Part shown: positions 11,530-30,969 of the stretch, piece by piece
Position numbering within the stretch: position 1 is the first letter of the stretch
Layout of the letters: the number at the start of each line of letters is the position of its first letter
Source of the DNA: Dehalococcoidia bacterium
Lineage (GTDB): Bacteria; Chloroflexota; Dehalococcoidia; SHYM01
Length of the DNA stretch: 35,590 nt
Assembly: GCA_009692805.1 (NCBI GenBank)
Contig: SHYM01000005.1
Span: 1-35,590, forward strand
Direction of reading: 5' to 3'
Translations under genes and position numbers: made by a program
Notes under the pieces: generated by a model
Told to the model about the DNA's origin: nothing
What the model saw: only the letters and a program-made list of their open reading frames with translations
Database searches by the model: none

Positions 11530-11970
11530 GTGGGCAAGACCCTGTTTTTTGAAGACGTCAACCTGGGCGATGCCCTGCCGAGCCTCGTCCGGCAGGCCTC
11601 GAACGACACCGTCAAGGCCTTCGTCAAGGTGTGGACGCCGGACCGCGGCGGCAGCCGCTTCACCGACGAGGGGCAAGCCAAGCGCGATGGCTTCCCTGGG
11701 CCCATCGTGCCTGGCATCCTCAGCATGTCGTACCTGTCCCAGGTGGTGCTGACCTGGGCTGATAACATCGAGCTGGAGAAGCTCGACGTCATCTACCGGG
11801 GGCTTATCCTCCACGGCGAGCGGCTCACCTGCAGGGGCGTGGTCACGGACAAAGGACTGGACGGCGGGCGACCCCTGGTGCACGTCGATCTATTCATGGA
11901 GCGGGACGGCGGCGAGCGCCCCTTGACCGGCAGCGCAAGGGTGCTGGTCCCCCAGCGGCTGGCCCATTGA
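11530..11970 (+). CDS. MaoC-like dehydratase domain protein (partner subunit)
   Basis: LFFEDVNLGDALPSLVRQASNDTVKAFVKVWTP...DGFPGPIVPGILSMSYLSQVVLTWADNIELEKLDVIYRGLILHGERLTCRGVVTDK, hot-dog fold arrangement. Confidence 0.85.
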   Translation: MGKTLFFEDVNLGDALPSLVRQASNDTVKAFVKVWTPDRGGSRFTDEGQAKRDGFPGPIVPGILSMSYLSQVVLTWADNIELEKLDVIYRGLILHGERLTCRGVVTDKGLDGGRPLVHVDLFMERDGGERPLTGSARVLVPQRLAH

Positions 11971-12051: not shown

Positions 12052-12516
12052 ATGGCAGAGGAAGAGTTCAAGCTGGAGTACGATCGCAGCGTGGTGGGCG
12101 TGGAATACGAGCTGGGTACTGTAACCATCACCCAGGAGCTCCTGGTCAGCTACGCCCAGTCCGTGGGAGAGCCCAACCCCATCTACTGGGACCCCGAGGC
12201 GGCCAGGAGAGGGCCCCACGGGGGCCTGGTCGCCCTCCCGACGCTCTGCTCCATCTACAGCTTCAACGCCATGAATGCTACGGGGCCAGACCTCAAAATG
12301 AACTTTGGGACCACGGGGATGGACGCGGGCGCGGCGGTGGAGACATTTTTGCCCATCCGCCCTGGGGACGTGCTGCGCGTGACCACCAAGGTGAAGGATG
12401 TCTATGCCAAGACCGGGCGCAGCGGCCCCATGGTGTTCACGATCAACGAGGAGACCTTCTACGACCAGCAGGGGCGCAAGGTGGCCGCGGTGACCCGCTC
12501 GGGCGTGCGCCGGTAG
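12052..12516 (+). CDS. MaoC family / FAS1-like dehydratase domain protein, paralogue of 11050..11520
   Basis: VVGVEYELGTVTITQELLVSYAQSVGEPNPIYWDPEAARRGPHGGLVALPTLCSIYSF...FLPIRPGDVLRVTTKVKDVYAKTGRSGPMVF. Confidence 0.88.
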   Translation: MAEEEFKLEYDRSVVGVEYELGTVTITQELLVSYAQSVGEPNPIYWDPEAARRGPHGGLVALPTLCSIYSFNAMNATGPDLKMNFGTTGMDAGAAVETFLPIRPGDVLRVTTKVKDVYAKTGRSGPMVFTINEETFYDQQGRKVAAVTRSGVRR

Positions 12517-17723: not shown

Positions 17724-20700
17724 ATGGTCCAGAGCACACCACCGCGGCACACCAACCGCCTGATTCACGAGACCTCGCCCTACCTGCTCCAGCACGCCCA
17801 CAACCCGGTGGACTGGTACCCCTGGGGCCCAGAGGCGCTCAAGCGGGCCCAGGCGGAGGACAAGCCGCTCCTCGTCAGCATCGGCTACTCGGCGTGCCAT
17901 TGGTGCCACGTCATGGAGCGCGAGAGCTTCGAGGACGAGGCGATCGCGGCGCTGATGAACGAGCACTTTGTTTGCATCAAGGTAGACCGCGAGGAGCGGC
18001 CGGACCTGGACCAGATTTACATGGCGGCGACCACTGCCCTTAACCAGGGACAGGGCGGCTGGCCCATGACGGTGTTCTTGACGCCGCAGCAGACGCCCTT
18101 CTATGCGGGCACCTACTTCCCCCCCGAGGATGGCCACGGTCGCCCCGGTTTTCCCACCTTGCTCCGGCGCCTGGCTGAGCTCTGGAAGAGCGAGCGCCCC
18201 AACCTGGAGGGCGCCGCCGCCGACCTGGCCCGCCGCCTGCAACAGCAAGCGCATGGCAGCGCCCGGCTGGCGGTGGGCGAGCGCGAGCTTAGGTTGGCGA
18301 CGGAGCAGTTCGCCGAGACCTTCGACCCCATCTACGGCGGCTTCGGCCGCGCCCCCAAGTTTCCCGCCGCCACGGGCCTATCTTTGCTGCTGCGCTGTCA
18401 CCGCCGCTCGGGCGACGCGCGCATCCTGGATATGGTCCGCAAGACGCTGGACGGCATGGCCCGGGGCGGCATGTACGACCAGATCGGCGGCGGCTTTGCC
18501 CGCTACTCCACCGACGAGCGCTGGCTGGTGCCCCACTTCGAGAAGATGCTCTACGATAACGCTCTCCTGGCGAAGGTCTATCTGGATGGCTGGCAAGCCA
18601 CGGGCAATCGCCTCTACCGTCGCATCGCCGCCGAGACCCTGGACTACGTCCTGCGCGAAATGACCTCGCCGGAAGGGGGATTCTATTCCGCTACCGACGC
18701 CGACTCCGAGGGGCACGAGGGGCGGTTCTTCGTCTGGAGCCCGGCCCAGCTCCGCCCAGTCTTGGGCGAGGACGGGGCGCGCTGGTTCTGCGCCTACTAC
18801 GACATCACGCCCACCGGCAACTGGGAGGGCTGGAACATCCCCAACACCCCTCGGAAGCTGGAGGACGTAGCGCGGGAGCTGGGCTGCCCGCCCCAGGATC
18901 TCCAGCAGTCTCTGGACCAGGCCCGCCCCAAGGTCTACGAGGCCCGTCGCCAGCGGGTGCCGCCCGCCACCGACGACAAGGTCCTCACGGCCTGGAACGG
19001 CATGATGATCGGCGCCTTGGCCGAGGGGTACCGCGTCCTGGGGGAGCCCCGCTATCTGGAGGGCGCGGAGCGGGCGGCGGACTTCATCCTGAGCCGCCTG
19101 GCCTCCCCGGACGGGCGCCTGCTACGCACCTATCGCGCCGGCGTGGCGCACCTGGATGCCTACCTGGAGGACTACGCCTGCCTGGCGGAGGGGCTCCTGG
19201 ACCTCTATGAGGCGGGCGGACGGCGCCGCTACCTGGACCAGGCGACCCGGCTGGCGGAGCTTATCCTGGCCGATTTCAAAGACGCGGACGGCGCTGCGTT
19301 CTACGAGACGGCGCGGGGCCACGAGCCGCTCATCGTACGGCCGCGGGAGGGCCAAGACGGCGCTACCCCCAGCGCCAACGCCGTGGCGGCCCACGTCCTG
19401 GCGCGGCTGTCCTGCCATCTGGGACTGCCCGAGCTACGCAGCGCGGCCATCGCCGCCATCCGGGAGTATGGCCGCATGATCGCCCAATACCCCAGGGCCT
19501 TCGCCAAAAGCCTGATTGTGGTGGACTTCCTGCTGGATGGCCCCGTGGAGCTGGCCCTGGTCGGGCGGCTGCAAGAGCCGGGCTTCGAGGCCCTGCGCCG
19601 GGAGCTGGGCGTACACTATCTCCCCAACCGTATCCAGGCGCTCCACGACCCCTCAGCAGGGCAGGCCCAGGGGCTTCCCCTTCTCGAAGGCAAGGCGCTG
19701 ATGGGGGGCAGAGCCGCCCTCTATGTCTGTCGGGACTTCGCCTGCGCCGCGCCCGTGACCGAGGCCGTCCAGGTCGCCGCGGCCCTGAGCGCCGAGCGGG
19801 GCAGCCGTCCCTCTGGCCCCATAACCCTGATCGACCAGCTAACCGCCGGCCACGCTACACCCGAAGGCACCGCCGCCTACGCCCAGCGTTTTAGCGCCAT
19901 GCGCCCTTATGGATACGGTCCCCTGGGCTCCACGGGGCTCGCCATCAGCCGGCTGGGCTTCGGCGGCTATCGCATCGAGGCGGAGACGCCGGAGCACCGG
20001 CAGGCGTTGGAGCTGGCGCTGCTGAGCGGCTGCAACCTCATCGATACCTCCACCAACTACACCGATGGCGGCAGCGAGCGCCTCGTCGGCGAGGCGCTCG
20101 CCAGCCTGACGCGTGCGGGCAAGCTGCGGCGGGAAGAGGTCGTCGTCGTCTCCAAGGTCGGTTATGTGCAGGGCGAGAACCTGGAGTTGGCGCAATCGCG
20201 GGAGGCGGCCGGCAGACCCTTCCCGGAGATGGTCAAGTACATGGAGGGCTGCTGGCACTGCGTCCACCCCGACTTCCTGCAAGACCAGTTGACCCGCTCC
20301 TTGGAGCGGCTGCAACTGGAGGCCCTGGACGTCTGCCTGTTGCATAACCCGGAGTACTACCTGTCGGACGCCGCCCACCGGGGTGCCGGACCTTTGGACA
20401 AGGTGCGCGACGACTTCTACCGCCGCCTCCAGGATGCCTTCGCCTTTTTCGAGGAGCAGGTATCCGCCGGCAAGCTGCGCTGGTACGGAGTCTCGTCGAA
20501 TACGGCGGTCTCCCCCGCCGGCGACCCGGAGGCGACCTCGCTGACGCGCATGCTGGAGGCGGCCCGCCGGGCCGGTGGCGATGCCCACCACTTCCGCGTC
20601 CTCCAGATACCCATGAACCTTCTGGAATCGGGAGGCGCCACGGAGCCCAACAACGGTCTGGACGGTCGCCAGACGGCCCTGGCCCTCGCCCTGGCGCAAA

Positions 20701-21371
20701 ACCTCGGCGTCCTCGTCAACCGCCCCCTGAACGCGATCCACGGGCCCGGAATGCTGCGGCTGGCGGACGCGCCGGTAGCGCGCGGCGAAGTCTCCTTCAT
20801 CACCCAGATCCCGGCGGTGGGCCGGCTGGAGGAGGAGTTCCGGGGCCAGCTCGCCCCCCAAATCCGGGCGGCGCCCAATACCCTGGCGCCCGCCCAGTAT
20901 TTCCGCTGGGCCGAACAGCTCCAGGGCCTGGTCCCCAGGCTGCAGGGACGGGAGCATTGGGAGCAGATCGAGGCCCAGATAGTCGGCCGGACGCTGCAGT
21001 TGGCGGAGGGGCTGGGCGAGCACCTGACCGGCCCGCTAGGGCAGCGTTGGGCTGCCTGGTGGGAGCGCTACCTGCCGGAGCTCCAGAAACTGCTGGGGGC
21101 CTTTCGGTACGTGGCTGCCAGCAAGGGCCAGGAGCAGGCGGCTGCCGTGGCGTCGGTCCTAGACCTTGCCCTGCCCGAGGAGCGCCGCCGGGAGGGCCTC
21201 TCCCGCAAGGCCCTCTGGGTGCTGGCCAGCACATCGGGGGTGAGCTGCGTGCTGAACGGGATGCGCCGGCCCGCGTACGTAAGCGATGCCTTGGGCGTGC
21301 TGGCGTGGTCGCCGCTGCCGGACGCCCTGCCCGTCTACTCCGCGCTGCGCGGCTTCCGGGCACCCGCGTAG
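17724..21371 (+). CDS. Two-domain fusion: DUF255/YyaL (SSP411, thioredoxin-like + six-hairpin) N-terminal, aldo/keto reductase C-terminal
   Basis: N-term [61 protein letters not shown]. From codon ~726 (19899) [67 protein letters not shown]. No stop between them. Confidence 0.9.
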
Positions 21372-26310: not shown

Positions 26311-26471
26311 CGACAGTGGCTTCCCCCCGCACCCCGTTATTCAAGATTCTCTAGGGCAGGCCACTGGGGGTTATGACGCTTCCGCAAGCCCCTAACCTCC
26401 CTCCCTGCACCGTAATCGCTAGCCGATACTACCATGGCGGCAGGAGTTGGCAACATGCTGGGGCTAAAGGC

Positions 26472-26498
26472 GGGGGGGCCACCCTTGGTGGCCCCCCC
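26472..26498 (-). terminator. Strong hairpin downstream of the DUF35 gene
   Basis: gggggggccacc-ctt-ggtggccccccc, 12-bp perfect stem, followed on the - strand by GCCTTTAG. Confidence 0.6.
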
Positions 26499-26524
26499 GT
26501 TCAGGTTCGCCTAGGTGCAGGGTG

Positions 26525-27112
26525 TCAGGCGGCGCCTCTGGTCTTGGGGGGCGCAGTCTTGGGGGGCGCAGCCTTGGTGTGGCGCTCGGCAGCGGCGAGC
26601 GCCTCCGGGTCGGTGGAGGGGCAGAAGAGGGGCAGGGTAACGTCCTCGTGGTCCTCCCACACCACCTCCACGGGCATCCCGATACGGATGCTCTTGGGAT
26701 CAAGCTCGAACGCCGGCACCTTGGCGGGGTTGTTCCAGCGGGCGACCTGGCTCACTGGCTCCTTGCCGTTGGGGTTCATGTCCACCAGGTTGGTGGCCAG
26801 CCTGACGCCGCCTGCGCGAGACAGTTCGACGACGGCGACGTTGAAGGGGGGACGCCCCACCAGGGCGGGGTGGGCCGGCGCCCGTACTATGGTGAAGGTA
26901 TAGACCACGCCGATGGGCGGCACCTGGTCTACCCACAGGTAGTCCAGCGACCGGCATTTGAAACAGTGGGGTATGGGGTTATGACGAAAGGTGCCGCACT
27001 TGGTGCAGCGCTGGATCATGAGGCGATGCCGCTTGGTCCAGGCCCAATACTCTTGGTCGTGCATCCCACCCTGGGGCAGGGGCATGCCTTTGGGGAAATA
27101 GCTGTCAGCCAC
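26525..27112 (-). CDS. DUF35 OB-fold/zinc-ribbon protein (acyl-CoA-associated)
   Basis: VADSYFPKGMPLPQGGMHDQEYWAWTKRHRLMIQRCTKCGTFRHNPIPHCFKCRSLDYLWVDQVPPIGVVYTFTIVRAPAHPALVGRPPFNVAVVEL; C-x2-C-x10-C-x2-C. Confidence 0.92.
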   Translation of the reverse strand: MADSYFPKGMPLPQGGMHDQEYWAWTKRHRLMIQRCTKCGTFRHNPIPHCFKCRSLDYLWVDQVPPIGVVYTFTIVRAPAHPALVGRPPFNVAVVELSRAGGVRLATNLVDMNPNGKEPVSQVARWNNPAKVPAFELDPKSIRIGMPVEVVWEDHEDVTLPLFCPSTDPEALAAAERHTKAAPPKTAPPKTRGAA

Positions 27113-27114
27113 GG

Positions 27115-28290
27115 CTACCTCCTCACGATCAGGTCGCTTACCGGCGCCACACCCGGCCCGGAAGCGACCAGGCAGATCTCGGCGCCCTCCACCTGGCAAG
27201 TGGAGGTGCCCCGCATCTGGCGCACGGCTTCCGTGACCAGCTCTAGACCATGGATGTAGGCCTCCGCCAGGTTGCCGCCGCTGGTATTCATGGGCAGTTT
27301 GCCGGCATGAGGAGCGCCGGGATCGGCTACTAACTTATGCTCCAAGCGGCCGCCGTCGCTGAAGGGCCCGCCCTCGCCGCGCTTGCAGAAGCCATGCTCC
27401 TCGATGGACATGAGCACCATGGAGGTCATGTTCTCGTAGATCTGCATGACCTGAATATCCTTAGGCTCGATGCCGGAGCGCGCCCAGAGGTCTTTGGCCA
27501 CGCTGTTGAAGTTGGAGGTGGGGTACTCGGGGCTGGCGTAACCGCCCTCGTGGGGGCCCGTCCCCTGGGCGGCGGCCATCAGGAAGGTCGGCTTCTGCTT
27601 CAGGTCACGCGCTCGCTCCGGAGTCGTTACCAGCACCGCCGCCGCCCCATCGTTCTCCTGGCAGCAGTCGTAGAGGTGGAGCGGCTCGGATATGTAGCGC
27701 GACTTGTGGTAGAGCTCGCGGGTGATGGGACGCCCGTACATGACCGCCCGGGGGTTGCGCTGCGCATGTTTGTAGCTGGCCAGGGAGAGGTTGCATAGGT
27801 GGTCTTCGGTGGTTCCGAACTCATGCATGTGCCGGCGGGCGTGGAGAGCGTAACGGTGCACCGGATTCATGAGGCCGAAGGGCGACGAATGGGCGCCTTC
27901 GCCCTGGACGCGCTCGGCCGCGCGGGACTGGCCAAAGCGCCCGAACTGCCCCTGCGCCAGGGAGCGGAAGGCGATGGCGTAGTTGCACACTCCGCTGTAG
28001 ACGGCCATCATGGCGTTGCATACGGCCCCGGAGCCGCCGCCCCCGCCGCCGCCCCAGAACATGTTATTAATCCGCAGCTGGGGGATACCCAGGGCGCGGG
28101 CGATCCAGGGCCCGTTGTTGCGGTCGTCGGCGTAGCTGAAGATGCCGTCCACCTGCTCGACGGGCAGGCCCGCGTCCTCGCAGGTCGTGATGATGGCCTC
28201 GCAGGCCATCTGGAACTCGCTGCGTCGCGCTTGCCCCCAGGGGAGGAACTCCGTCTCGCCGATGCCGGCTATGCAGGTCTTATCACGCAT
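27115..28290 (-). CDS. Thiolase-fold protein (lipid-transfer/acetyl-CoA acetyltransferase family)
   Basis: MRDKTCIAGIGETEFLPWG...NNMFWGGGGGGGSGAVCNAMMAVYSGVCNYAIAFRS...CQENDGAAAVLVTTPERA...QIYENMTSMVLMSIEEHGFCKRGEGGPF. Confidence 0.9.
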   Translation of the reverse strand: MRDKTCIAGIGETEFLPWGQARRSEFQMACEAIITTCEDAGLPVEQVDGIFSYADDRNNGPWIARALGIPQLRINNMFWGGGGGGGSGAVCNAMMAVYSGVCNYAIAFRSLAQGQFGRFGQSRAAERVQGEGAHSSPFGLMNPVHRYALHARRHMHEFGTTEDHLCNLSLASYKHAQRNPRAVMYGRPITRELYHKSRYISEPLHLYDCCQENDGAAAVLVTTPERARDLKQKPTFLMAAAQGTGPHEGGYASPEYPTSNFNSVAKDLWARSGIEPKDIQVMQIYENMTSMVLMSIEEHGFCKRGEGGPFSDGGRLEHKLVADPGAPHAGKLPMNTSGGNLAEAYIHGLELVTEAVRQMRGTSTCQVEGAEICLVASGPGVAPVSDLIVRR

Positions 28291-28316
28291 TGACCAAGGC
28301 AAGGTCGTCTCCTTTC

Positions 28317-29402
28317 TTAGCGCTTCTGCCCGACCGCTTGTGGCTTGCTGGGCAGTACTACCCAGGCGCGGCAGGGCGTCGTGACCCCCTCCCGGGCGTT
28401 CTCGGCCCATACCTCGCACTCCACCAGGTGCTCCCCTTTCTCCACATATTTGCGCAGCACCTTCCCGGTGCAGACCATCACGTCCCCCGGGCGATTCATG
28501 CGCCGCATCTCCATGCGAAACTTGCGCAGCCAGCCCTCGTCGCCCATCCAGTCCGTAACCACTCGTCCCAAAGTGCCGCGCATGAAGCCGGTGTTGACGA
28601 AGATGTCGGGGTGGCCAGCCGCCTTGGCGAAGGGGCGGTCGTGGTGGACTGCGTAGAAGTCCTGAGAGCCGCTGACCTGCTCCGCGATACAGGTCTCGGT
28701 GATCGGGTGTTCCTCGATAGGGAGGAGGTCGCCCTCTTTTACCTCTTCCCAGTAAATCTGGCCCGCGGGCGTACTGCTGGTAGGCCGTCGCGAACCCAGC
28801 GGTTCCGGCATTGCGGGGGGTGTGGCTACCGGTCCGGTGGGCGCTCCTTTTTGTCCAGCGGGCACTGTGTCGGTCGCCCGGTGTCGCAGCCCCAGGTTGC
28901 TCTCGATGGCCACCGTCTCTCCCTGGGGGTTCATGATTATGTTCTGGGTGGTGGTCCACACCGCGCACCAGTCGAGGCGAATGGAGAGGAAGTACATGTC
29001 CGCGTAGCGGCTCTTCACGCTCAGGCGCTCGCCTACCTTCACCGGCAGGAGCCACTCCGCCTCCACGGTCAGGTTGATGTTGCGGTCGCCTGGGCTAGGG
29101 ATGGCTGGCAACCGAGGCGCTTCCTCGCCGCGGGGCCAGATCCCGGGACCGGCGAAGTAGCTTACAAAAGGCGGAGGCACGATGACGGCGCCATACTTGC
29201 TCTTGGCGGCATATGCGGGATCGAGAAACAGACGGTTGGTATCGCCCGTCATGTGGCAATGGCGCCGTATAGGGTCGTACTCTACGGGGTAGCGGCCCTG
29301 GACGGGCTTGGTCTCTAGTCCAATGAACTTTTTCCGCATCGCCTCCAAGTCGAAGTCGAAACCGGGTATGTTTTGACGCTGGGGTTCCGGAAGCCAGTTC
29401 AT
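28317..29402 (-). CDS. Two-domain MaoC-like acyl-CoA hydratase (FAS1-like N + MaoC-like C)
   Basis: FIGLETKPVQGRYPVEYDPIRRHCHMTGDTNRLFLDPAYAAKSKYGAVIVPPPFVSYFAG...HPITETCIAEQVSGSQDFYAVHHDRPFAKAAGHPDIFVNTGFMRGTLGRVVTDWMG. Confidence 0.9.
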   Translation of the reverse strand: MNWLPEPQRQNIPGFDFDLEAMRKKFIGLETKPVQGRYPVEYDPIRRHCHMTGDTNRLFLDPAYAAKSKYGAVIVPPPFVSYFAGPGIWPRGEEAPRLPAIPSPGDRNINLTVEAEWLLPVKVGERLSVKSRYADMYFLSIRLDWCAVWTTTQNIIMNPQGETVAIESNLGLRHRATDTVPAGQKGAPTGPVATPPAMPEPLGSRRPTSSTPAGQIYWEEVKEGDLLPIEEHPITETCIAEQVSGSQDFYAVHHDRPFAKAAGHPDIFVNTGFMRGTLGRVVTDWMGDEGWLRKFRMEMRRMNRPGDVMVCTGKVLRKYVEKGEHLVECEVWAENAREGVTTPCRAWVVLPSKPQAVGQKR

Positions 29403-29452
29403 TTAATAGGTGGTCTCCTTTCTTAAGGGTTAGCTGTCATCTCAGGAGCGGT

Positions 29453-30523
29453 TCAGGAGCGTGTCGGCAGGACCACCGTGGCCTGGCAGACGGTGGCGAT
29501 GCCCTCGCGGGCTTGCTCGATCCAGACCTGGCAGTCCACCAGGTGGTCGCCCTTCTCCACGTATTTGCGCTGCACCTTCCCGGTAAGGACCATCACGTCT
29601 CCCGGGCGGTTCATGCGCCGCATGTCCACGCGGAACTTGCGCAGCCAGCCCTCGTCGCCCATCCAATCGGTGACCACGCGGGCCGCGCAGCCGCGCGTGA
29701 AGCCGTTGTTGACGAAGATGTCAGCGTGTCCGGCGCTCTTGGCAACGCCCCGGTCATGGTGGACCGGCTGGAAGTCCTGAGAACCGCTGACCTGCTCCGC
29801 GATACAGGTCTCGGTGATGGGATGCTCCAGCAGCGGCAGGGCGTCGCCCTCCTTGACGTCCTCCCAGTAGAGCCGCACATTTCGCCCCTTGCTGACTGGC
29901 GGCCTGTGCTCGCCCAAAGCCTGGGGCATCGGCGGCGCCGCCGCGGGCGCTACGTTGGGCGGGCCCTTTTGGCCCTCGGGCACCTGGTCCGCGGCGCGGT
30001 GCCGGAGGCCCAGGTTCGTTACGATAGCCACCGTCTCGCCACGCTGGTTCGTTATGATGTTCTGCGTGGTGCTCCACACCGCGCACCAGTCGAGACGGAT
30101 GGAAAGGAAGTAAAGGTCGGAGTAGCGGCTCTTTACGCTGAGGCGGTCTCCCACCTTCACCGGTATGGGCCACTCGGTGTCCACCGACATGGCGATGGGG
30201 CGTAGCCCCGGCGTCGGTATGGAAGGAAGCGTGGGCTCCTGCTCTGACCGGGGAGGCCAGTTGCCACGCCCCGCGAAGTAGATGACGAGGGGCGGCGGCA
30301 CGATCACGGCGCCGTACTTGCTCTTGGCGGCGTACTCCGGGTCCAGATAGAGGGGGTTGAGGTCCTTGGTCATGTGAGAGTGCCGGCGGATCGCGTCGTA
30401 CTCCACCGGGTAACTCCCCTGGACGGGAGTAGTCTCCACCCCGATGTATTTCTTCCGCATCGCCTCTAGGTCGTAGTCGAAGCCCGGGATGTTCTGCCTG
30501 TAGGGCAGTGGGAGCCAGTCCAT
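29453..30523 (-). CDS. Two-domain MaoC-like acyl-CoA hydratase, close paralogue of 28317..29402
   Basis: YIGVETTPVQGSYPVEYDAIRRHSHMTKDLNPLYLDPEYAAKSKYGAVIVPPPLVIYFAG...HPITETCIAEQVSGSQDFQPVHHDRGVAKSAGHADIFVNNGFTRGCAARVVTDWMG. Confidence 0.9.
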   Translation of the reverse strand: MDWLPLPYRQNIPGFDYDLEAMRKKYIGVETTPVQGSYPVEYDAIRRHSHMTKDLNPLYLDPEYAAKSKYGAVIVPPPLVIYFAGRGNWPPRSEQEPTLPSIPTPGLRPIAMSVDTEWPIPVKVGDRLSVKSRYSDLYFLSIRLDWCAVWSTTQNIITNQRGETVAIVTNLGLRHRAADQVPEGQKGPPNVAPAAAPPMPQALGEHRPPVSKGRNVRLYWEDVKEGDALPLLEHPITETCIAEQVSGSQDFQPVHHDRGVAKSAGHADIFVNNGFTRGCAARVVTDWMGDEGWLRKFRVDMRRMNRPGDVMVLTGKVQRKYVEKGDHLVDCQVWIEQAREGIATVCQATVVLPTRS

Positions 30524-30642
30524 AGCCCTCTAGACCTCCTTACCCAAGTGTTGTGCGCCCGAGGGCCAATGCTAGACCAGTGGATGGCAGCTTGTCCATA
30601 GCCCCGCGCGGCGGGCCGGGGGGAGCGCCTGCCCAGGCCTCG

Positions 30643-30969
30643 TCAAGGAGGGGGGCGCTGTTTCCCCAGGGAGAGTAGAAAGTGGCCTAGGATATCGAGA
30701 CTCCGCCGCTCCAGCACCAGGGTGAAGAGTTGTTCCTTCACCTCGCGGGGCAACAGCTCGATGGTGTTGGTGGTGGCGGTGTCGCATTTCGCCGCTGGGA
30801 AGCGGTCCAGCAGAACGTCTTTCTGCTGGTCATCGGCGGGGATGGAGATCACCTTCAAGCCGGCGAGGACCTCCCTGGCTGTCGCGGCCAGACCGGCCTC
30901 CCGCAGCCGGGTCTCGCGCTCCTCGTTGATCCAGATGTTGATGGGATATACGGGCCGGTTGGTGCTCAC
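30643..30969 (-). CDS. Conserved-looking hypothetical protein overlapping sat
   Basis: 108 aa MSTNRPVYPINIWINEERETRLREAGLAATAREVLAGLKVISIPADDQQKDVLLDRFPAAKCDTATTNTIELLPREVKEQLFTLVLERRSLDILGHFLLSLGKQ; ATG overlaps the sat stop by 4 nt. Confidence 0.7.
   Translation of the reverse strand: MSTNRPVYPINIWINEERETRLREAGLAATAREVLAGLKVISIPADDQQKDVLLDRFPAAKCDTATTNTIELLPREVKEQLFTLVLERRSLDILGHFLLSLGKQRPPP

Follow-up and report, generated by a model that had tools for sequence, protein, structure and literature searches.

The nearest described systems to the locus reported here are ChsH1-ChsH2-Ltp2, which serves cholesterol degradation in actinobacteria and is known from the igr operon of Mycobacterium tuberculosis and from Thermomonospora curvata (6OK1), and ORF40-44 of Comamonas testosteroni. 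In the ChsH1-ChsH2 hydratase the His/Asp dyad is found in ChsH1 only; ChsH2 has a tyrosine for the histidine, which leaves space for the steroid (PMC11321319). The MaoC and DUF35 domains of ChsH2 are functional as separately expressed proteins, and in C. testosteroni the aldolase activity requires DUF35, which is indispensable (PMC12502768). In T. curvata Ltp2 (TcLtp2), Tyr294 of the YDHF motif is the base and Tyr344 the acid (PMC12329534). We analysed a stretch of 35,590 nucleotides from a Dehalococcoidia bacterium (contig SHYM01000005.1; hereafter the window), in which four tandem minus-strand genes encode the proteins MaoC1 (29453..30523; predicted fused two-hot-dog enoyl-coenzyme A (CoA) hydratase, 356 residues), MaoC2 (28317..29402; its tandem paralogue, 361 residues), a predicted Ltp2-like thiolase-fold aldolase (27115..28302) and a stand-alone DUF35 protein (26525..27112; zinc-ribbon Cys4 and OB fold, 195 residues). 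We consider it quite probable that this operon encodes a beta-oxidation-like hydratase-retroaldolase module. Its homology, active-site residues, clade, operon structure and domain fusion are established by computation.

The best sequence match of the thiolase-fold protein in the PDB is TcLtp2 (6ok1_A, E 3e-78), well above every thiolase. An AlphaFold model from a 35-sequence alignment, with a predicted local distance difference test score (pLDDT) of 85 and a predicted template modelling score (pTM) of 0.89, was used for a Foldseek search, in which 6ok1 came first (template modelling (TM) score 0.87-0.89, E 1.7e-41) with the thiolases behind. In the alignment, Tyr285 (codon 27436..27438, minus strand) and Tyr345 (codon 27256..27258, minus strand) are equivalent to the catalytic base Tyr294 and the catalytic acid Tyr344 of TcLtp2, residue numbers being counted from the ATG at 28290 and the TcLtp2 residues being taken from PMC12329534; both catalytic tyrosines are therefore present. 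Tyr345 occupies the position of the thiolase catalytic histidine (GHxxG). Where thiolases have the nucleophilic-Cys motif, the protein has a glycine loop, GGGGGGG (28033..28053, minus strand; residues 80-86), which the first-pass annotation had already pointed out and which is indeed present as GGGGGGGSGAVCNAM; the true thiolases of the same genome (G000) have ACAT or ACAS at this site. The HDCF/HDAF motif of thiolases is changed to YENM, with Glu-Asn at the second Cys position. The six true-thiolase paralogues in G000 retain both the nucleophilic cysteine and the catalytic histidine, the two residues of an SCP2-type thiolase that the window protein lacks. Judged from these residues, the protein is not a thiolase.

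Phylogenetic analysis places the window protein next to the Ltp2 proteins and apart from thiolases. In a tree of 57 rows (values are ultrafast bootstrap (UFBoot)/Shimodaira-Hasegawa-like approximate likelihood ratio test (SH-aLRT)), the window clade has 100/100 and is united with Ltp2 at 100/99 in a clade of 36 rows; the SCP2-thiolase set lies outside the two (100/100), and Sal lies outside too. In a larger tree of 175 rows, the protein is in an 87-row clade (SH-aLRT 100) adjoining the actinobacterial Ltp2s (112-row clade, SH-aLRT 94), so that it is located in a sister clade of its own and not within the clade containing TcLtp2. Tyr285 is conserved in all 87 rows of this clade and Tyr345 in 85; the motif is YENF in 84 rows and YENM in three, and GGGGGG is found in 82 of the 87. 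The members come from Chloroflexota, Pseudomonadota, Actinomycetota and others. The best NCBIfam model, NF005892 (lipid-transfer protein, PRK07855), gives 389.7 bits, which is under its curated cut-off of 469; this cut-off is exceeded in 19 of 199 genomes of the actinobacterial phylum, and the proteins above it are neighbours of MaoC/DUF35 genes. The window aldolase is thus a separate lineage, outside the Ltp2 subfamily as delimited by NCBIfam and by the tree, with the Ltp2 catalytic pair retained, and we infer that it works in the Ltp2 manner. The first-pass annotation had named a protein clustering with thiolases that bear the full Cys-His-His-Cys site as an outcome that would speak against its proposal. 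This is not what is seen: the cysteine and the histidine are gone with both Ltp2 tyrosines kept, and in the tree the protein joins Ltp2, with SCP2 thiolases and Sal left outside.

MaoC1 and MaoC2 are about 73-75% identical, and each consists of two domains, as had been annotated; this description can be refined, with an inert N-half and an active-type C-half in each protein. The N-half of MaoC1 (D-L-N-P-L-Y) has Asp54 and, in place of the catalytic histidine, Tyr59; in MaoC2 (D-T-N-R-L-F) the histidine is replaced by Phe59. The dyad is intact in both C-halves, as Asp250-x4-His255 in MaoC1 (D-F-Q-P-V-H) and Asp248-x4-His253 in MaoC2 (D-F-Y-A-V-H). The actinobacterial controls show the same pattern of halves, as do those close relatives across the class that were examined. 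The PDB matches of the MaoC1 C-half include ChsH1 chains, and in NCBIfam the halves match HadA/HadB models far under the cut-off. The combination of an inert MaoC (histidine to tyrosine in ChsH2) with a His/Asp-dyad MaoC, typical of ChsH1-ChsH2, is present in both window paralogues; the other feature of that system, MaoC and DUF35 in one ChsH2 chain with ChsH1 separate, is not, since in the window the MaoC halves are fused and DUF35 is separate. From these motifs, each window MaoC is best described as a fusion of an inert half like the MaoC of ChsH2 and an active-type half like ChsH1. The AlphaFold model of MaoC1, from an alignment of six rows, had a pLDDT of 54 and was unusable.

A MaoC1 homologue (E 1e-15) occurs in 223 of 294 genomes of the class; among the closest of these homologues, the two halves are mostly encoded by separate neighbouring genes. 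In a related genome, G001, the two halves are separate single-copy genes directly upstream of the aldolase, each with its own start and ribosome-binding site. An assembly error as the cause of this frame break was rejected, given the clean two-gene arrangement with a stop, a ribosome-binding site and a GTG start. MaoC1 and MaoC2 cluster together with G001 outside (UFBoot 93, SH-aLRT 91), and their branch lengths are 0.30 and 0.087, respectively. The simplest history would be fusion of the MaoC halves followed by tandem duplication in the window lineage, with MaoC1 evolving faster than MaoC2. Such a fusion also argues, if indirectly, for joint action of the halves. A further MaoC pair, this one split, is located elsewhere in the window on the plus strand (11530-11970, a weak MaoC match, and 12052-12516, FAS1_DH_region).

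The nearest PDB chain to the DUF35 protein is 6ok1_B, the DUF35 domain of ChsH2 in the Ltp2 complex (E 3e-17). Its zinc-ribbon Cys4 is present, and CCCC is found in 78 of 81 aligned family members. A DUF35 gene lies directly downstream of the aldolase in 74 of the 86 clade members with enough downstream sequence, and two genes downstream in several of the others. The DUF35 partner expected of an Ltp2-type aldolase is accordingly provided by the adjacent gene, with its 6ok1_B match and Cys4, the partnership being read from the genes. Among the fetched loci there was no open reading frame (ORF) fusing the lipid-transfer protein (LTP) to DUF35, hence there is no direct fusion evidence for the interaction of the two. 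The stand-alone DUF35 protein ChsH4 partners the aldolase Atf1 (PMC10398937), which together with the C. testosteroni data makes a separate DUF35 gene in the window functionally plausible. In an Ltp2 locus of the actinobacterial phylum (L231; G141:C7, 3858-7540) the ChsH2-type MaoC and DUF35 are encoded separately, so that a stand-alone DUF35 adjoining a true Ltp2 has a natural precedent. G000 itself encodes two further thiolase-fold proteins that have no nucleophilic cysteine and stand beside DUF35, one of YDCY type (L052, contig C85, which also carries a MaoC pair at a distance) and one of YDSY type (L053, contig C72).

We propose the following mechanism. MaoC1 and MaoC2 would each act as a single-chain pseudo-heterodimer, in which the inert N-half would accommodate a bulky acyl group and the C-half, with its Asp/His, would hydrate a 2-enoyl-CoA to the beta-hydroxyacyl-CoA. 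With the DUF35 protein holding it, the Ltp2-like protein would then cleave the C(alpha)-C(beta) bond via a retro-aldol reaction, in which Tyr285 would deprotonate the beta-hydroxyl and Tyr345 would protonate the acyl-CoA enolate, releasing a ketone or aldehyde together with an acyl-CoA of the acetyl or propionyl type. Such a route would dispense with the oxidation and the thiolytic step of ordinary beta-oxidation, which is necessary when the beta-carbon, a branched or ring carbon, is quaternary after hydration.

The association of these genes is not due to chance, since the LTP-DUF35 pair recurs in most clade members as counted above and the MaoC pair adjoins a YENF/M aldolase and DUF35 not only in the window but in three further Dehalococcoidia-class genomes (G001, G022 and G495; L057/L235). 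In 80 aldolase-clade loci, with gene labels assigned by reading sequences, CaiB-type CoA-transferases were counted in 33, acyl-CoA dehydrogenases in 23, ligases in 13 and some MaoC within 6 kb in 21. These neighbours are the company of a catabolic acyl-CoA pathway, and no single substrate follows from them. In the Roseomonas relatives, a mesaconyl-CoA-hydratase-like MaoC and an MFE2-type double MaoC are near the aldolase, both names coming from reading sequences and not from a family search. Seven loci of Roseomonas-type Acetobacteraceae have a YENF aldolase and DUF35 near MaoC, a CitE-like lyase and CaiB, a setting in which the substrate may be a small branched dicarboxylyl-CoA.

Could the module instead serve true steroid catabolism in Chloroflexota, degrading a steroid side chain in the manner of ChsH1-ChsH2-Ltp2? 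All the closest characterised enzymes are steroid enzymes, and one genome of the window's phylum has a canonical ChsH2 (MaoC-DUF35)-ChsH1-Ltp2 cluster (L233; G286:C28) as in actinobacterial cholesterol degraders. However, targeted family searches for KshA_C (PF19298) and HsaC-like TIGR03213 gave no match in the Dehalococcoidia genomes G000, G001, G022 and G495 (97% complete), whereas both were matched in the actinobacterial control G195, and TIGR03213 only in G227. The position of the aldolase outside the Ltp2 clade, with Glu-Asn for Asp-His, also speaks against a steroid. Since KshA and HsaC, markers of steroid-ring degradation, were not found in these four module-carrying genomes, the substrate is probably something other than a steroid broken down by the 9,10-seco route, and steroid side-chain degradation seems unlikely to us. 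The reaction might also run in the reverse direction, the Ltp2-like protein adding an acyl-CoA to a ketone or aldehyde and the MaoC proteins dehydrating the product to branched enoyl-CoAs, given that the aldol reaction is reversible in principle and that the MaoC halves also resemble the HadA/HadB dehydratases. The catabolic-type genes at the aldolase-clade loci argue against such a synthesis, and in steroid systems it is the cleavage that pulls the unfavourable hydration forward (PMC11321319); we regard it as very unlikely. As for a degradative or condensing thiolase or an acyltransferase (SCP2 thiolase or PhlC-like) using DUF35 as a scaffold, the fold is that of a thiolase and DUF35 partners occur also with true thiolases and PhlABC (PMC12329534), but the nucleophilic cysteine is replaced by the glycine loop, the histidine by Tyr345 and the second cysteine position by Glu-Asn, in a clade that is apart from the thiolases at 100/100. 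The missing nucleophile and the tree placement led us to reject both the true thiolase and the PhlC-like acyltransferase, which retain next to no probability.

Several observations weigh against the hydratase-retroaldolase module itself. The Tyr-Asp-His-Phe of Ltp2 with its oxyanion histidine (His296) is not found in the window aldolase, which has Tyr-Glu-Asn-Met, Asp-His being exchanged for Glu-Asn; replacement of the oxyanion histidine in TcLtp2 caused an activity loss of merely about 14-fold (PMC12329534), and the exchange at this position suggests a different substrate or geometry. Only a few aldolases of the clade have the MaoC pair beside them, and within the class the homologues of this pair are mostly located elsewhere. 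The operon contains no gene for an acyl-CoA dehydrogenase, ligase or CoA-transferase. Finally, the absence of steroid genes from G000 is weak on its own, as this 1.35-Mb assembly is 71% complete. We infer that a complex carries out a retro-aldol reaction and that its substrate is a branched or alicyclic acyl-CoA, steroids degraded by the 9,10-seco pathway excepted. The first-pass annotation had proposed a module related to Ltp2 and ChsH1-ChsH2 and had suggested that the two MaoC paralogues might set the substrate range. The module reading is supported, with the aldolase grouping with Ltp2 and the MaoC halves resembling inert ChsH2 and active ChsH1; the aldolase is not a member of the Ltp2 subfamily proper.

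The four ORFs were found at the coordinates and on the strand annotated before, in the families expected from their Pfam domains: FAS1_DH_region and MaoC in both hydratases, Thiolase_C_1 in the thiolase-fold protein, and zf-ChsH2 and OB_ChsH2_C in the DUF35 protein. The genes, separated by gaps of 50, 26 and 2 bp and preceded by Shine-Dalgarno-like GGAG-type motifs, form one tight minus-strand operon. The aldolase ORF had been annotated from the ATG at 28290. That frame is present, but the gene probably starts at the TTG at 28302, because AAGGAG lies at proper spacing upstream of it and the G001 ortholog (82% identical) has an ATG at the equivalent position. A strong GC hairpin just 3' of the DUF35 gene (26471..26499, minus strand; -34.6 kcal/mol for a 58-nt stretch, z = -3.2) is the probable end of the operon; a consensus terminator scan gave no terminator on the operon strand, the hairpin lacking the clear T run that the scan requires. 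Upstream of MaoC1, a region of about 440 bp that separates it from the ATP sulfurylase gene (30523-30966) seems to encode a short unannotated protein, following a GTG near 30968. Further away, a single plus-strand ORF of 1215 residues (17724-21371) combines a DsbH/DUF255 thioredoxin-like protein (YyaL type) with an aldo/keto reductase.

The wider interest lies in the uncharacterised aldolase clade to which the window protein belongs. The literature on thiolase-fold retro-aldol cleavage of beta-hydroxyacyl-CoAs, as far as we found, covers steroid side chains only. A sister clade that extends across phyla, in which the genomes tested have no detectable steroid-ring pathway, suggests a broader solution for the degradation of branched or ring-bearing carbon. 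The Chloroflexota clade SAR202 has reportedly been proposed as an oxidiser of recalcitrant organic matter, and branched or ring-bearing carbon is the kind of such matter linked to it; literature searches combining SAR202 with MaoC and thiolase, or Chloroflexi with lipid-transfer protein/DUF35/MaoC, found nothing. For proteins best named just 'lipid-transfer protein', the active-site residues and the partner proteins are now specified concretely enough to be tested. It is an even question in our judgement whether the clade is, next to Ltp2 and Sal, a third class of thiolase-fold acyl-CoA aldolases, one with a glycine loop, Tyr-Glu-Asn-Phe/Met and a second tyrosine, nearly always partnered by DUF35 and served by MaoC hydratases that vary between bacteria, which would offer Chloroflexota and Proteobacteria that do not degrade steroids a general means of cleaving branched or alicyclic carbon at quaternary centres.

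Among known systems, the (3R)-hydroxyacyl-acyl carrier protein (ACP) dehydratase HadAB resembles the window MaoC proteins in being a pair of hot-dog domains. Its substrates are ACP-bound mycolate precursors, and to our knowledge it has no DUF35 or aldolase partner. ChsH3, CasD and CasQ are fused double-MaoC hydratases and, like the window MaoCs, have two MaoC domains per chain and no DUF35 domain (PMC11321319). They act on C5 steroid side chains, whereas the operon of the window hydratases also encodes DUF35 and an Ltp2-like aldolase, and these hydratases derive from a split pair still present in relatives. Atf1-ChsH4 of Mycolicibacterium neoaurum and Sal-Shy of Proteobacteria likewise combine a thiolase-fold aldolase with a DUF35 partner. 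Like the window DUF35, ChsH4 stands alone (PMC10398937); different from the window aldolase, C. testosteroni Sal (CtSal) has Tyr-Asp-Cys-Tyr and no second tyrosine (PMC12329534), and Sal is on another branch of the tree. ChsH1-ChsH2-Ltp2 gives the best sequence and fold matches, and shares with the window a co-encoded inert/active MaoC pair, DUF35 with Cys4, and an aldolase with both catalytic tyrosines. Compared with it, the window operon has no ChsE dehydrogenases, and no steroid-ring genes were found in the KshA and HsaC searches; its MaoC halves are fused and duplicated, its DUF35 is separate and not a ChsH2 domain, and its aldolase has Tyr-Glu-Asn-Met for Tyr-Asp-His-Phe together with a long glycine loop. 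The window module is a variant of the known hydratase-aldolase machinery, in a separate and widespread clade, and probably cuts another branched or cyclic compound.

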